Shown in pieces: positions 991 through 25,376 of a stretch of DNA of 33,203 nucleotides. How positions within the stretch are numbered: position 1 is the first letter of the stretch; each line of letters opens with the position of its first letter. Origin of the DNA: Candidatus Saccharimonadota bacterium (lineage in GTDB: Bacteria > Bacteroidota > Bacteroidia > B-17B0 > Aurantibacillaceae); contig CAJCJB010000074.1 of the NCBI GenBank assembly GCA_903970545.1, positions 1 through 33,203 of the forward strand. Reading direction: 5' to 3'. The notes beneath the pieces were generated by a model. It was given only the letters and a program-made list of their open reading frames with translations, was not told where the DNA came from and did not search any database. The translations under genes were made by a program, and so were the position numbers.

Positions 991-1076
991 ACTGAGCCTG
1001 TCGAAGTATGGGCGTTCCCTTTGATTACAAAGGTCGGGCTTTACACTTCAATCTTTTGTCGATTACAACAAAAGGA
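991..1076. repeat. Intergenic repeat-like element with hairpin
   Basis: The 191-bp gap after pdhB starts with ACTGAGCCTGTCGAAGTA (991-1008), a string I recall as a dispersed intergenic repeat in Bacteroidota genomes. A hairpin follows: CTTTTGT (1053-1059) pairs with ACAAAAG (1068-1074), extended by one wobble pair. No open frame or promoter is convincing here. The dispersed nature comes from memory, since only one copy lies in this window. Confidence 0.4.
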
Positions 1077-1175
1077 TTTTCGTTGCAATCCCTAACACAA
1101 AAAGAGGAATTGAAAAGTAAAGTATTATCCGAAATAAAAAAAGTGTAGCTTTACCTCTTAACTTTTTTAGAACGT

Positions 1176-9346: not shown

Positions 9347-10085
9347 TTATCGTACTATAACCACCCGTTTATTTACTACGCCCTCTGCACTTTGCAAACT
9401 TATGTTATAAACACCCTCATTTAAGCTGCTTGAATCTATACTTGTTTTGCCGCTTATGGTTTGGCTTAATACAAGCTTACCAGTTACATCATAAACCTGC
9501 ATGGTTTGTTTGGTTGCGCTGTTTGGCTCTATAACAAAACTACCGTTGTTGGGGTTTGGGTAAATGTTTACCTCATTCTTGTTTGTACTAAATTGTTGCA
9601 CACCTGCAATGCAAGGGTCAGGATAAACATAAATACTAAAAGTACTATCCGGTCCCTGACATCCATTTAATGTAGCAGTAACTGTATGTAATAGTTGAAA
9701 CAATAGTTACCAAAGAAGTATTAACCGTTATAAAAGAAGGCACATCACCGGTTTGTGTACCACCTACTCCACCTAAACCAGTCCATGTAAACACTGGGTT
9801 CCCTCCGGAAGGAAGGAAAACAAAGTTTATGGGAGATGTAGTTTGATTAGGACAATAAAAATAATTTGGTACAGGGGCTACAAGTGGTGTGGGTTTAATA
9901 TTAATCGTATCTATAGCAGGTACCCCAACACAACCACTTAAAATGGGCGTGTATGTTACGACACCAATTTGGTTAGTTAAAGTCGTGTTGCTTGGTGCTA
10001 CATATGCAGCAGGTATACCCGTACCGAATACCGGCATACCTATATTCGTATTATTAGACTTAAAATTCAACATTAAGTTTAGGTT
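9347..10085 (-). pseudogene. Broken T9SS-secreted protein: 5'-truncated and frameshifted
   Basis: The remnant reads in two frames. The upstream part (10073 down to about 9690) encodes PKD-like surface-protein repeats (GTGIPAAYVAPSNTTLTNQ, then FTWTGLGG). The downstream part (about 9690 to 9347) finishes that domain (TVTATLNGCQGPDSTF) and ends in a clear T9SS sorting domain (NEVNIYPNPNNGSFVI ... GVVNKRVVIVR). The frames join if two bases are restored near 9684, where ACACAG has become ACAG. Nothing upstream supplies a signal peptide or start, and the coding stops next to the first 21-bp array. It was once part of a large secreted adhesin-like protein. Confidence 0.75.
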
Positions 10086-10104
10086 AACAAAGAGGGCGGT
10101 TTGG

Positions 10105-10244
10105 TGTTTTTGGCATCAACAGTGGCTATTTTGAAAGGAACCGCGGCTACTTCGAGAGAAACCGCGGCTATTTTGAAACAAACCGTGGTAATTTTGCAAT
10201 TAACCGTTGCTACTTAGAAAAAAACCGGCGTGTGCATAAAAATA
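10105..10244. repeat. 21-bp tandem array 1 with conserved leader
   Basis: Five to six units in exact 21-bp register begin at 10119, 10140, 10161, 10182, 10203 and 10224, with consensus near ACCGCGGCTATTTTGAAA plus three variable bases. The sequence TGTTTTTGGCAT...AGTGG (10105-10125) precedes and overlaps the first unit. It recurs at the head of the larger array near 21212. Because 21 bp is seven codons, one frame reads NRGYFER-type heptapeptides, but no start codon exists between its upstream stop (10085-10087) and the array. A hairpin (ATTCTTA/TAAGAAT, 10294-10312) lies downstream. The array fills the 312-bp gap before the DsbD-like gene. Confidence 0.8.
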
Positions 10245-10397: not shown

Positions 10398-12470
10398 ATG
10401 GCTAAATCGTTTTTAAGGAGTATTCTTTTCGTCTTTTTAATCTTAGGTCTCGTATCTCAGGTCTGCACCGCGCAAGATAAAGACCCCGTTAGTTTTAAAA
10501 TAGAAGCTAAAAAGGTTTCGGCTACCGAGTATGATATTGTTTTTAATGCCGCCATTGATGAAGGCTGGCATGTATATTCTATAGTGCCGGCAGATGGCGG
10601 ACCTAACCCTACCACGATTACCGTAAACAAATCAGCCGACTATGATTTGGTTGGTAAAGTAAAAGAAAGCAAGCCTATTGAAGAAATGGATAAGGTTTTT
10701 GATATGAAGGTGCAATACTTTAAGCACAAAGCCACCTTTACCCAACGCATAAAAGTAAAAACCGATAAGACCTTTAAAGTATCAGGTAAATACGAATATC
10801 AAACTTGTACCGATGAGAAGTGCATGTTTCCACCTGCTAAAAAATTCTCGCTTACTATTGAGCAGTTAGCGGTTAGCGTTAAGCCTTTAGCTGATAGCAG
10901 TAAAAAGTTGGCGGTAAACAGTAAACAAGATACAGCATACACGGTACAAGATACAAGCAAAAAAATTGCTACCGCTCAATCGACAAATCAACCAATCGAC
11001 CAATCTACCAATTCTTCTACAGATACTCCCTGGTGGATGATATTTTTAAAAGGAATTGGTTTTGGGTTAGCTGCTTTAATTACCCCTTGTGTATTCCCCA
11101 TGATACCTATGAACGTGAGTTTCTTTTTAAAGCGTAACAAAAAGCGCAGCGGTGCTATTAAAGAAGCTTTGTTCTTTATGCTCAGCATCATTGTTATTTA
11201 TACGGCGTTAGGTTTATTAATTACCGCCGTCTTCGGCGAAACCGCTTTAAACGCCATAGCCTCCAGCGCATCATTCAATATCTTCTTCTTTATCATGCTC
11301 ATTATTTTCGGTATCAGTTTCTTGGGTGCCTTCGAAATTGTATTACCCAACTCTTGGCTCAATAAAATGGATGCACAGAGCGATAGGGGTGGTTTCCTTG
11401 GTATCTTCTTTATGGCAACAACGTTGTCGTTAGTTTCATTCTCCTGCACAGGTATTTTTATTGGTAATTTAATTCCCTTGGTAAGCAACTCACCAACCGG
11501 TCCCTTCTTTGGTTTTTTAGGTTTTGGTTTAGGCTTTGCACTTCCCTTTGGTTTGTTTGCCATTGTACCCAGTTGGTTAAACAGCATGCCAAAATCGGGC
11601 GGATGGTTAAACACCGTTAAAGTTACACTTGGTTTGCTGGAATTGGCACTTGCCTTAAAATTCGCTTCCAATGCAGATTTGGTATATGATATGCACATTC
11701 TTACCCGCGAGGTCTTCCTTACCTTATGGATTGTTTTATTCGCCATCACCGGAATTTATTTAATGGGGTGGTTCAAACTTAGTCACGATACCCCTGCCCC
11801 TTTCATCACCATTCCCCGCTTGTTCTTCGCCATCTTTGCTTTTGCCTTCACGGTATATATGATTCCCGGCTTGTGGGGCGCACCTTTAAAATTACTAAGT
11901 GGTGTTATTCCTCCTTCCACCTATGCTGAATGGAAACCACAAACGGCAACGGTTGTGCAATCTGGGAATCAAAACTCATCTGCCTTAGCTACTAAAATGA
12001 TTGATGGTCCGGATGGATTAAAGGTTTTTCATAATGATTATGAAAGTGCTTTAGCCTATTCAAAAGAAGTGCACAAGCCATTGATGATTGATTTTACAGG
12101 CCATGCCTGCGCTAATTGCCGTAAGATGGAAGACAACGTGTGGGTAGAACCCGAAATAAAAAATATCTTGGCAAATGATGTGGTGATTGTTTCTTTGTTT
12201 GTTGACGATAGAAAAGAACTGGCTAAAACTGAACAGAAAGAAGTTGATTGGAGTGGAGATAAAGTAACCCTTGAAACCGAAGGAATGAAGTGGGGCTTTA
12301 TGCAATTAAGCAAATACAAAATAAGCTCTCAACCTTATTATGTTATTGTAAACGATGATGAATCGTTACTAAGCAACAATGGCATTGGTTACGATACGGG
12401 TAAAGACCTGCCTGTTTTTAAAACATGGCTTACCACTGCCATTGCCAAATACAAAGAGAAGCATCCTTAA
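10398..12470 (+). CDS. dsbD: DsbD-like thiol:disulfide interchange protein
   Basis: 690 aa with the three-part DsbD layout. A signal peptide leads to an N-terminal periplasmic alpha domain (to about residue 155, with YQTCTDEKCMFPP holding its cysteine pair). A Ser/Thr/Asn-rich linker follows. The central eight-helix CcdA-like domain has cysteines C231 (TPCVFPMIPMNVSFF) and C350 (SFSCTGIFIG). The C-terminal thioredoxin domain has the CxxC pair C571/C574 in HACANCRKM. It carries electrons from cytoplasmic thioredoxin across the inner membrane to periplasmic or c-type cytochrome maturation partners. A near-consensus TACCTTTA lies just upstream at 10372-10379. Confidence 0.92.
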   Translation: MAKSFLRSILFVFLILGLVSQVCTAQDKDPVSFKIEAKKVSATEYDIVFNAAIDEGWHVYSIVPADGGPNPTTITVNKSADYDLVGKVKESKPIEEMDKVFDMKVQYFKHKATFTQRIKVKTDKTFKVSGKYEYQTCTDEKCMFPPAKKFSLTIEQLAVSVKPLADSSKKLAVNSKQDTAYTVQDTSKKIATAQSTNQPIDQSTNSSTDTPWWMIFLKGIGFGLAALITPCVFPMIPMNVSFFLKRNKKRSGAIKEALFFMLSIIVIYTALGLLITAVFGETALNAIASSASFNIFFFIMLIIFGISFLGAFEIVLPNSWLNKMDAQSDRGGFLGIFFMATTLSLVSFSCTGIFIGNLIPLVSNSPTGPFFGFLGFGLGFALPFGLFAIVPSWLNSMPKSGGWLNTVKVTLGLLELALALKFASNADLVYDMHILTREVFLTLWIVLFAITGIYLMGWFKLSHDTPAPFITIPRLFFAIFAFAFTVYMIPGLWGAPLKLLSGVIPPSTYAEWKPQTATVVQSGNQNSSALATKMIDGPDGLKVFHNDYESALAYSKEVHKPLMIDFTGHACANCRKMEDNVWVEPEIKNILANDVVIVSLFVDDRKELAKTEQKEVDWSGDKVTLETEGMKWGFMQLSKYKISSQPYYVIVNDDESLLSNNGIGYDTGKDLPVFKTWLTTAIAKYKEKHP

Positions 12471-20035: not shown

Positions 20036-21163
20036 ATGAAATTAGTAATACTTGGTGCCGGTGCTTCTTATGATGCATTTTATTGGTATAGAGATGAAAA
20101 TACTTTTAAGAATTGGAGAGCACCATTAGCTAATGAGATTTTTGAACAAAGACCTGATTTTTTAAATATTATTGATACATATCCAGGTTCTCATAGCGTA
20201 TTTAGCCAAATAGGTACAGTAGGAGATATAGAAGCTTTTTTCCAGGAACGTTATGAAAATTCTGTTAAGCATGGTAACATTAATGTAGAAAAGCAATTAA
20301 TAAACTTAAAGTTCTTTTTACAGCATTTGTTTTATCAAATATCGGAGAAGCTAAATTATGCTGGTAATAGCAATTTAGTGAAACTTATTACCCATATAGA
20401 TGACTATATTGCTAAAACAAAAGAAGATGTTTTAATAATTAGTTTTAATTATGATTTACTCATGGAACGTGCACTTTGTGAGCATTATTATGGTAAGGCT
20501 AAAAGCGATTATGATATAGGAGATTACTTATTAAACAAGATTAAGCTTATAAAACCTCATGGTTCCTGTAATTGGTTTAGGGTATCTTGTATTAATCAAG
20601 ATACAATAACGCCTCGTATGTCGTTTTCTGATTATTTGTTTAAGAATAATTTCACTCAAGAATATATAAATAGACAACTTGAAAAAGAATTTATCTGTGC
20701 ACCATATAGTGCTGGAAGCTTCCATAAAGGGACTAATAATAATTTTTATATGTTTCCTCAAATACATATTCCTTTAAAAGAAAAGGATGAGTTTACTATG
20801 CCTAAAGAACAAGAAGATTATTTAAATGAATACTTACCGAAAGTTGATGAAGTATTGATTGTAGGATGGAAGGGAAGTGAACAACATTTTAATAGAAAAT
20901 TGAAAGAACATTTAGGGAATAAAACTTTAAAAATCCAAGTTGTTAATGGTCCAAATCATATAAACCCAGCAATAGTTTTATATAATTTAAAAGATTCTAT
21001 AAATACAAATAATTCCAGTTTGTTTTTGGATGATTACTCTTTAGAGGGGATAAATGGCACAAAAGAATTTCTTACCTTTCTTTCAGAAAATAAGCAGGAA
21101 GGTTCTCTTACTTCCTTTTTAATTAAATTGGAACAAGGAAGAACAAAATCAATTTTTGATTAA
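20036..21163 (+). CDS. SIR2-like NAD-binding domain protein
   Basis: 375 aa, stand-alone. The motifs of the SIR2-like (STALD-type) fold are visible: the nucleotide-binding loop LGAGASYD (residues 6-13), PLANEIF (30-36), ISFNYDLLMERAL (135-147) and KPHGSCNW (173-180), which carries the histidine of the catalytic region. Such proteins hydrolyse NAD or act as NAD-consuming effectors in several bacterial anti-phage systems (Thoeris, DSR, SIR2-HerA). No partner (HerA, pAgo, TIR or NLR) lies nearby, so a defence role is inferred from the family only. It is clearly richer in A+T than recA, and it ends 48 bp before the leader of the large 21-bp array. It is probably acquired DNA. Confidence 0.75.
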   Translation: MKLVILGAGASYDAFYWYRDENTFKNWRAPLANEIFEQRPDFLNIIDTYPGSHSVFSQIGTVGDIEAFFQERYENSVKHGNINVEKQLINLKFFLQHLFYQISEKLNYAGNSNLVKLITHIDDYIAKTKEDVLIISFNYDLLMERALCEHYYGKAKSDYDIGDYLLNKIKLIKPHGSCNWFRVSCINQDTITPRMSFSDYLFKNNFTQEYINRQLEKEFICAPYSAGSFHKGTNNNFYMFPQIHIPLKEKDEFTMPKEQEDYLNEYLPKVDEVLIVGWKGSEQHFNRKLKEHLGNKTLKIQVVNGPNHINPAIVLYNLKDSINTNNSSLFLDDYSLEGINGTKEFLTFLSENKQEGSLTSFLIKLEQGRTKSIFD

Positions 21164-21211: not shown

Positions 21212-21749
21212 TGTTTTTGGCATAAATAGTGGTAAAATCAACGTTATGCTTGCATCGCTCGTTAGCATCCTTACATCGCTTCACGCGATGCTTGAATGAT
21301 TGAAGATTTTGCTTACATCGCTTTCAATTATCCTTGCATCGCTTCACGCATTGCTTGAATGATTGAAGATTTTGGTTGCATTGTGTTTAATTATCCTTGA
21401 ATGATTAAAGATTTTGCTTGCATCGCTTTCAATCATCCTTACATCGCTTCATGCGTTGCTTGAATGATTGAAGATTTTGGTTGCATTGCGTTCAATTATC
21501 CTTGCATGCTTTAAAGCTATCCTTGCATCGCTTTCAATCATCCTTACATCGCTTCACGCGATGCTTGAATGATTGAAGATTTTGCTTGCATCGCGTTCAA
21601 TTATCGTTGCATCGCAACAAGCTGTTCAAGCATCGCGTTAAGCGGAGGGAGGTTGCTGCAAAATTATGCTTGCATCGCGTTCGATTATCCTTTCATCGCT
21701 GCAAGCGATGAAAGTATCGCTACGAGCTATGTGAGGTTGCTTCAAACCG
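21212..21749. repeat. 21-bp tandem array 2 with conserved leader
   Basis: From 21246 to 21749 the sequence divides into 24 consecutive units of exactly 21 bp, without a single register slip; a 25th starts at 21750. There are three unit types: A near TTGCTTGCATCGCTTTCAAT, B near ATCCTTACATCGCTTCACGC, and C near ATGCTTGAATGATTGAAGAT. They follow one another as B-C-A, a 63-bp higher-order repeat seen from 21267, 21330, 21435 and 21540. After 21603 the units diverge. Hairpins form within it: CATCGC/GCGATG (21274-21290, again 21547-21563) and a perfect 10-bp stem TTTCATCGCT/AGCGATGAAA (21691-21713). The leader TGTTTTTGGCAT...AGTGG (21212-21232) matches that of array 1. Confidence 0.9.
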
Positions 21750-21898: not shown

Positions 21899-22252
21899 TA
21901 AGCAGGCCGTTCTATCGCTGCGGGAATACCCGCAGAGGAAAGTCCGGACAACACAGAGCACCTAACCTTTTGAAAAAGAGGGTATGCAAAGGGCAACTTA
22001 GCATAACAGATAGTGCCACAGAAAATATACCGCCATGCTTCGGCAGGGTAAGGGTGCAAACGCGAGGTAAGAGCTCACGCACAACGGCAGCAATGCTTTG
22101 TGAGGAAAACCTTAGGGGTTGAAAAGCCAAATAAGTTGCGGTTTAAGCAGCTCGCTTATGTTTACTTCGGTAAACGCCGCAATGGGTAGGCCGACCAGAT
22201 AAATGATAGAAGCCGCGCAAGCGGAACAAAACCCGGCTTACAGGCCTGCTTA
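21899..22252 (+). ncRNA. rnpB: RNase P RNA
   Basis: About 354 nt, the catalytic RNA that matures tRNA 5' ends. The hallmark conserved segments appear in order: GAGGAAAGTCCGGAC (21936 onward), ACAGAAAATATACCGCC near 22018, GGTAAGGGTGCAAACG and GAGGTAAGAGCTCACGC near 22060, and AAATGATAGAAGCC followed by ACAAAACCCGGCTTACAG near the 3' end. The terminal P1 helix pairs TAAGCAGGCC (21899-21908) with GGCCTGCTTA (22243-22252). It is a type A RNA. An open frame on the opposite strand inside it is not a gene. A T-rich stretch follows the 3' end. Confidence 0.97.
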
Positions 22253-22300
22253 TTTTTTGTTTTACGAAGTAATGTCTCTTAAAGAGAGGTTATATAAACC

Positions 22301-24011: not shown

Positions 24012-25376
24012 ATGAGAAAGTATCAGAAATTCGTCCCTGATGAAAGAATTCGTATTGTTTTTAAGGGATTAAGCAAAAAAACCACCGTTTCAAGACTTTG
24101 TATTGAGGAAGGAGTTAGTACAAGTCAATTTTATAACTGGAAAAATTTAATACTCGAAGTTGTTAAAAATAATATCCCTAAAAAAACTAAAATATTAATA
24201 GAAGAAAAAAGTCTTATCGAAAAACAAAAGAAGATTATTAGTACTCTTGAAGAGAAAAACAGGTTACTTAAAAATTATATTAGAAATAGTGGGTTGGAAA
24301 AAAGATATTTTCGATATAGTTTCCTTCAAAAGAAAAAAATAATAGAAGTAGTCGAAAAATCTAATTTATCCCTAAACGATACTTTAAAATGCTTATATGT
24401 ATATAGAAGCAATTTTTACAAGTGGAAAAAAGAAATGGAACTTAATCCTGACGGTAAACACCTCTTTGAAAAAGTAAAACGCAAATTTCAATTGCCAATT
24501 TATAGAGATGCTGTTTTTTCTATTTTACATTCTCCTCCAAGAGCCCATGGATTTAATAGAACAACTTGGAGAATGCATGATTTGCAAAAAACCATGCATG
24601 AGAGAGGGTTAGGAATAGGTAAACATTATATTAGCAGAATAATAAAAAACGAAGGATATAGATTTCTAAAAGCACGTAAAGTGTTGACCAGCACTGACCC
24701 AGAGTATAAGGAGAAGCTAAAAAGAATCACAGAAGTTTTATTGAATTTAAAACATGATGAAAAATTCTTCTCTATAGATGAGTACGGTCCATTTGCTGTT
24801 AAAATTCAAGGTGGACGCTCGCTTACACCCCCAGGACAGTATTATACCTATCCTCAATTTCAAAAGAGCAAGGGTTGCTTGATATTAACTGGTGCGCTTG
24901 AATTATCTACCAATCAATTTACCCATTTTTATTCTTTGAAAAAGAACACGGAGGAAATGATTAAACTTCTTGAAATATTGGTTGCAAAATATAAGTCTCA
25001 AAAATGTATATACTTATCATGGGATGCTGCTTCATGGCACGCATCAAAAGAACTTTATAAAAAGGTTGAAGGATTAAATAAAAGTAAAAATTCCCCAACA
25101 GTTAAATTAATCCCATTGCCTGCCTGCGCTCAATTTTTAAATGTCATAGAATCTGTATTTAGCGGAATGGCTAAGGCGGTTATTCACAACAGTAATTACT
25201 CCTCGAAAGAAGAATGCATGTCAGCAATAGACCGACATTTTCGTGAGAGAAATGAATTCTATTTAAAAAATCCCAAGAGGGCTGGGAAAAAACTATGGGG
25301 TAAGGAATTAGTAGTACCTGTATTTAATGAGAGTAATAACTGCAAAGACCCAAAATATCAACATGATTATAAATAA
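24012..25376 (+). CDS. IS630-like DDE transposase
   Basis: 454 aa, longer than the usual ~340 aa of IS630 transposases. An N-terminal HTH of the kind seen in IS3 OrfA (FVPDERIRIVFKGL ... GVSTSQFYNWK, residues 7-44) is followed by a coiled coil (about 62-92) and a second helix-turn-helix region (about 102-140). The IS630 block SPPRAHGFNRTTWRMHDL (174-191) comes next. The DDE_3 catalytic core shows D256 (SIDEYGPF), D338 (LSWDAASWH) and E380 (LNVIESVFSGM). All three acidic residues are present, so it may be active. Known IS630 relatives insert at TA, which agrees with the flanks here. Confidence 0.85.
   Translation: MRKYQKFVPDERIRIVFKGLSKKTTVSRLCIEEGVSTSQFYNWKNLILEVVKNNIPKKTKILIEEKSLIEKQKKIISTLEEKNRLLKNYIRNSGLEKRYFRYSFLQKKKIIEVVEKSNLSLNDTLKCLYVYRSNFYKWKKEMELNPDGKHLFEKVKRKFQLPIYRDAVFSILHSPPRAHGFNRTTWRMHDLQKTMHERGLGIGKHYISRIIKNEGYRFLKARKVLTSTDPEYKEKLKRITEVLLNLKHDEKFFSIDEYGPFAVKIQGGRSLTPPGQYYTYPQFQKSKGCLILTGALELSTNQFTHFYSLKKNTEEMIKLLEILVAKYKSQKCIYLSWDAASWHASKELYKKVEGLNKSKNSPTVKLIPLPACAQFLNVIESVFSGMAKAVIHNSNYSSKEECMSAIDRHFRERNEFYLKNPKRAGKKLWGKELVVPVFNESNNCKDPKYQHDYK

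Follow-up and report, generated by a model that had tools for sequence, protein, structure and literature searches.

The window, by which we mean the whole analysed stretch of 33,203 nucleotides, carries two arrays of imperfect 21-bp units, some 11 kb apart (Table 1). The first lies between a degraded gene and a dsbD-like gene. The degraded gene is broken into a fragment that carries a Por_Secre_tail domain (9347-9703, minus strand) and an upstream piece in a different frame, without family match (9645-10073, minus strand). A preliminary description had set the array against the truncated edge of a T9SS pseudogene; the neighbour is indeed a gene fragment of this kind, but its presence looks incidental. 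The second array has a SIR2-like domain protein (SIR2_2, 20036-21163, plus strand), possibly defence-related, closely upstream, and a class A RNase P RNA gene (21899-22256, plus strand) directly 3' of it. A transposase with DDE_3 and HTH_Tnp_1 domains (24012-25376, plus strand) is also close.

Table 1 Features at the two array loci of the window.
Feature	Position	Strand	Description
T9SS-cargo gene remnant	9347-10073	-	Frameshifted and truncated; adjoins first array (context)
Left flank AACATTAAGTTTAGGTTAACAAA	10069-10091	+	Conserved; also adjoins the orthologous, different array of G005 (L199)
Leader unit GGTGTTTTTGGCATCAACAGT	10103-10123	+	In 21-bp register; leader common to 21214, C209, C259, C319 and C163
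Five 21-bp units, GGCTATTTTGAAAGGAACCGC type	10124-10228	+	Detected by TRF; lag-21 identity above shuffle maximum
dsbD-like gene	10398-12470	+	Pfam DsbD_TM, DsbD_N; downstream of first array
Leader TTTTTGGCATAAATAGTGG	21214-21232	+	Ahead of second array; matches the leader of the first
Second array	21231-21746	+	In 21-bp register; 42/63/105-bp higher-order repeats; unit unlike that of the first

TRF describes positions 10124-10227 as a repeat of period 21 with 5.0 copies, 73% matches, 0% indels and a score of 96. Across 10103-10228, 73 of 105 comparisons at lag 21 are identical (0.695), against a highest identity of 0.44 in dinucleotide shuffles (n = 2000, lags 8-42). The 21-bp array seen initially is therefore genuine. 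Its extent had been given as 10119-10244, with five to six units: it comprises one leader unit plus five units, and the register begins slightly upstream, at 10103. Both arrays share a leader (TTTTTGGCATCAACAGTGG at 10107, TTTTTGGCATAAATAGTGG at 21214), and the similarity of their unit profiles is at chance (p 0.64), in line with the earlier observation of one period with two different units.

The census of such arrays rests on samples: stretches were picked without regard to arrays, and every lag was scored. In 437 kb of the window's own genome (G000), window included, lag 21 accounts for 22 arrays and lag 20 for one, with none at any other lag from 15 to 31. A second genome of the same genus, G005, yielded 25 arrays at lag 21 and one at lag 27 in 413 kb, over the same range of lags. 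The scan proposed in the preliminary description, run on these samples, thus returns further 21-bp arrays, both in this genome and in a relative, rather than the absence it had named as fatal to the idea. One G005 array inside a 1908-codon open reading frame (L172) was left out of the array set; without it, lag-21 and lag-42 arrays jointly number 49. By extrapolation from the sample, the whole genome is estimated to hold about 170 arrays.

Other congeners gave a different picture. No lag-21 array occurs in the sampled stretches of G002 (124 kb), G004 (80 kb), G003 (134 kb) or G001 (53 kb), and the single one in G006 (24 kb) looks coding, given its long open frames. A 42-bp repeat of G006 (L219, 2882-3214), with a long open frame and serine-rich heptads, is probably coding and outside the array class. 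Altogether, the ~415 kb sampled from these five congeners contain no intergenic array, so that dense arrays are, as far as sampled, confined to G000 and G005, with low or zero numbers elsewhere. One 14-unit array was found in G001, at a locus targeted via a flank motif. Several arrays lie at contig ends (L128 1-410, L134 1-218, L170 1-120, L183 18874-19159, and L002), a sign that draft assemblies may be broken by them.

The units themselves are mostly, but not wholly, specific to their locus. Among 1770 array pairs, 43 exceed the 1% level of unit similarity where ~18 are expected, and 11 exceed the 99.9% level of the null where 1.8 are expected; L002, L043 and L004 are related in this way to the first array of the window. 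The view that units are unrelated among loci accordingly holds for most pairs, which stay at chance, and fails for this excess. Within arrays, mismatch among units is ~25%. Unit identity is 0.68 at distances of 21/42 bp and declines to ~0.62 by 147-168 bp, a sign of local homogenisation. A 42-bp higher-order repeat is present in many arrays.

As 21 is divisible by 3, the arrays could in principle code for heptapeptide repeats. The first array has an open frame, reading GYFERNR-GYFERNR-GYFETNR, and some of its unit differences fall at third positions. We regard this reading as the least credible of all and reject it on the codon-phase test, in which the concentration of variation, 0.410 over 47 arrays, is below the null of 0.425. 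Moreover, the frame of the first array meets stops in others, such as the one near 21.2 kb, and nearly all arrays sit between genes. Neither are the arrays of CRISPR type: their units are head-to-tail and imperfect, with no alternation of repeat and spacer.

Sequence is better kept at the edges. About six or seven of the arrays seen begin with the GGCAT leader, six of them in register. Of the two traits first suggested to define the class, spacing is strongly supported in G000 and G005, and the leader only in part. A mismatch-tolerant search for the leader retrieves arrays in C209, C259, C319 and C163; all of them keep the 21-bp register, and the unit differs from one to the next. Across loci, the GGCAT-leader arrays agree best in the leader unit (identity 0.79); the value drops to 0.47 in unit 1 and to ~0.34-0.44 further in, the edge being kept and the interior replaced. 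When 84,980 genomes were scanned for exact copies of the leader, 19 scattered matches appeared, with a lag-21 array in none of the DNA fetched, and we rejected the leader as a broad marker. A resemblance of TTGGCAT to a sigma-54 promoter was dismissed by eye, the -12 GC being missing from most copies.

As for flanks, which are of several types, 23 of 43 testable arrays have a flank element in common with another array, and about half have no common flank. One of these elements is a 27-bp ACGGT-dimer motif, ACTTTTTNAACGGTCGTTTTTAACAAA, present in G000, G001, G002, G004 and G005 (5 of 7 congeners) and not found in G003, G006 or four other genera. At 24 of 30 sites its second CGGT box lies exactly 21 bp past the first. 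Within ~130 bp downstream of the motif, an array begins at 9 of 15 examined sites in G000 and G005, and at 0 of 15 in G001, G002 and G004, a lag-63 match at L252 of G001 being left out of the latter count. One of the nine motif-adjacent arrays (L244) has period 20. The same period is seen in L125 (2617-2847), and both adjoin the motif.

The structured RNA Flavo-1 (RF01705) touches six arrays or lies at most 45 bp from them, in one relative orientation in all six. It has 38 matches in the own genome, 52 in G005, 77 in G001 and none in G003; the copy in the window (1028-1100, minus strand) has no array close by. The fixed orientation might be taken to mean that transcription of the arrays yields repetitive small RNAs, acting as decoys or guides. 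We consider this very unlikely, as no Rfam family matches inside the arrays at the loci searched.

Homologous loci show that units turn over. Upstream of dsbD an array is present in both G000 and G005, next to a flank in which 21 of 23 bases are identical (AACATTAAGTTTAGGTTAACAAA and, at L199, AACATTAAGAATAGGTTAACAAA), and its units are unrelated (p 0.58). The dsbD proteins of the two genomes are 88-89% identical, and the orthologues in G001, G002, G003, G004 and G006 have no upstream array. L103, L105 and L116 likewise have segments of both leader and trailer flanks in common and unrelated units. The recent duplicates L142 (6018-6133) and L178 (8807-8901) of G005, with flanks 96-98% identical, differ in unit number. 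No clean pair of empty and filled sites was obtained, the neighbouring genes being rearranged in nearly every case compared. A search of the 120 bp next to each array end found no terminal inverted repeats: inverted similarity is 15.2 for the two ends of one locus and 16.4 across loci, and none is above the 99th percentile.

Indels are few in arrays. Relative to their own consensus, arrays contain 3020 mismatches and no more than 47 indels, of which many are probably alignment artefacts, while noncoding background between G000 and G005 has 102 substitutions and 13 gaps. The ratio of indels to substitutions is therefore about eightfold lower in arrays, relative to a small background of 617 columns. 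The deficit is suggestive of selection on spacing, not proof of it, given so small a background and the inflation of both array counts by copied units.

All arrays are intergenic except L172. Where both neighbours are known (n = 39), 18 arrays lie between tandem genes, 16 between divergent ones (L172 counted here) and 5 between convergent ones, against intergenic length shares of ~55-61%, ~25-30% and ~13-15%, respectively. Arrays may be mildly over-represented between divergent genes (16/39 against ~25-30%), a possible pointer to regulation. They often sit close behind the stop codon of the upstream gene, and most end at least tens of bases short of the next start codon. This placement fits an insertion tolerated outside promoters and is not in itself proof of function.

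One rival explanation is that spacing is the function. An oligomerising protein that binds in steps of two helical turns, be it a nucleoid or silencing protein or a promoter-upstream regulator, would select for 21-bp spacing and tolerate nearly any unit. It would account for the scarcity of indels, for an array kept at the orthologous dsbD position despite its replaced sequence, for tandem-pair arrays being nearer to the upstream stop codon with a gap before the next start codon, and for a related motif with two CGGT boxes 21 bp apart. However, no motif common to all arrays was found, and it is hard to see how arbitrary units would be read by a protein. Enrichment of dyads in units is marginal (5.62 versus 5.40 expected, ~2 sd); single units do have clear ones, but we discarded dyad binding sites as a general rule. 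W/S autocorrelation at lags 10-11 is about -0.02, and this lack of a 10-11 bp A/T periodicity speaks against phased-bend, curved-DNA arrays. Array positions track intergenic length, with a divergent bias that is mild at most. We hold this explanation to be unlikely.

Still less probable is a copying machine with a 21-nt ruler (a polymerase, reverse transcriptase or integrase) that makes arrays from local sequence, the enzyme rather than descent setting the period. A uniform period with mostly unrelated units, few indels and dense arrays in just two sampled congeners are what it would produce. Against it, L125 and L244 have period 20, and related units and common leaders across loci show that existing arrays are copied; no candidate enzyme was identified in a less than genome-wide search. 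Put more generally, spacing may be the conserved trait itself, with a two-helical-turn activity, either a DNA-coating protein or a copying enzyme of 21-nt step, building or maintaining well over 100 arrays per genome. We give this broader proposition a minor but real weight; if it holds, array sequence may be replaced altogether from one sister species to the next.

The explanation that we favour, with somewhat better than even confidence, is a dispersed family of noncoding intergenic minisatellites, expanded within one sub-lineage of a Bacteroidota genus, whose interiors are rewritten while the 21-bp spacing is inherited. It brings together the common period, the dispersal, the common leaders and flanks, the noncoding character, the turnover of units at an orthologous site and the few indels, all of them observed. 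Spread, rewriting and period are seen as patterns, from which we infer the individual steps. Copies would spread as a flank or leader with a few 21-bp units. Their interior would then be quickly rewritten by whole-unit amplification and deletion and by point mutation, so that ancestral sequence would survive longest at the array edges, beside the leader. The period would descend from a founder, possibly one with boxes 21 bp apart, because whole-unit exchange keeps the spacing; residual purifying selection on spacing may add to this. We propose that the array itself, lying upstream of promoters, is for the most part selfish or neutral, a passenger with no function tied to its locus.

Dispersal is supported by the common leaders and flanks and by the excess of related units. 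The CGGT boxes 21 bp apart, also present in congeners without dense arrays, possibly support the founder spacing. As most pairs have no detectable unit homology, common descent of all arrays is an extension of what the related ones display. A transposition step stays conjectural, given that neither terminal inverted repeats nor a clean empty/filled pair was found. Finally, indels are fewer than a purely neutral satellite predicts, which counts against the minisatellite reading, as do the arrays without a common flank and the possible mild excess between divergent genes.

Dispersed repeats in bacteria are usually identified from their sequence. The present class is visible by period alone, and sequence-based repeat annotation would therefore not group its members; in the literature searched, of partial coverage, we found no report of such a period-defined class. 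G000 and G005 offer a natural test of how bacterial minisatellites start, spread and get rewritten, and of whether spacing alone can be selected.

Among known systems, the BOX elements of Streptococcus pneumoniae are modular and intergenic, their flanking modules enclosing internal tandem units that vary in number. Their internal unit is a single, conserved one of ~45 bp, whereas the 21-bp arrays have just spacing in common. Flavo-1 RNA is, like the arrays, dispersed and intergenic in the same genomes, and lies beside six sampled arrays; unlike them, it is a structured single-copy motif, and it is abundant in G001 (77 matches), whose random stretches lacked arrays. The TAACTGA direct repeats of Beggiatoaceae, Cyanobacteria and some Bacteroidetes also form many short intergenic arrays per genome, with long ones in some Bacteroidetes, but consist of a fixed 7-bp word and, in the Beggiatoa genome, lie mostly closely upstream of start codons (PMC4679880). 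The 21-bp units are varied in sequence and mostly upstream of the promoter region.

The minisatellite/MITE BrickBuilt of Porphyromonas gingivalis repeats the same 23-nt unit, with 0-11% mismatch, at each of its 19 loci and has inverted-repeat ends, and a leader and tail of which one or both are missing in some copies (PMC4596501). It resembles the 21-bp arrays in belonging to Bacteroidota, in its intergenic, imperfect tandem units of similar length and in its many dispersed copies; its leader and tail may have a partial counterpart in the flanks that 23 of 43 arrays have in common with another. Fixed-length intergenic imperfect tandem units are found here too, as the lag-21 peak attests. The arrays differ in their locus-specific units with ~25% mismatch, their estimated 170 loci, their several flank types and the lack of detected terminal inverted repeats. 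Having neither one unit everywhere nor such repeats, they are not members of BrickBuilt but are like it in anatomy, and it is the nearest described element.
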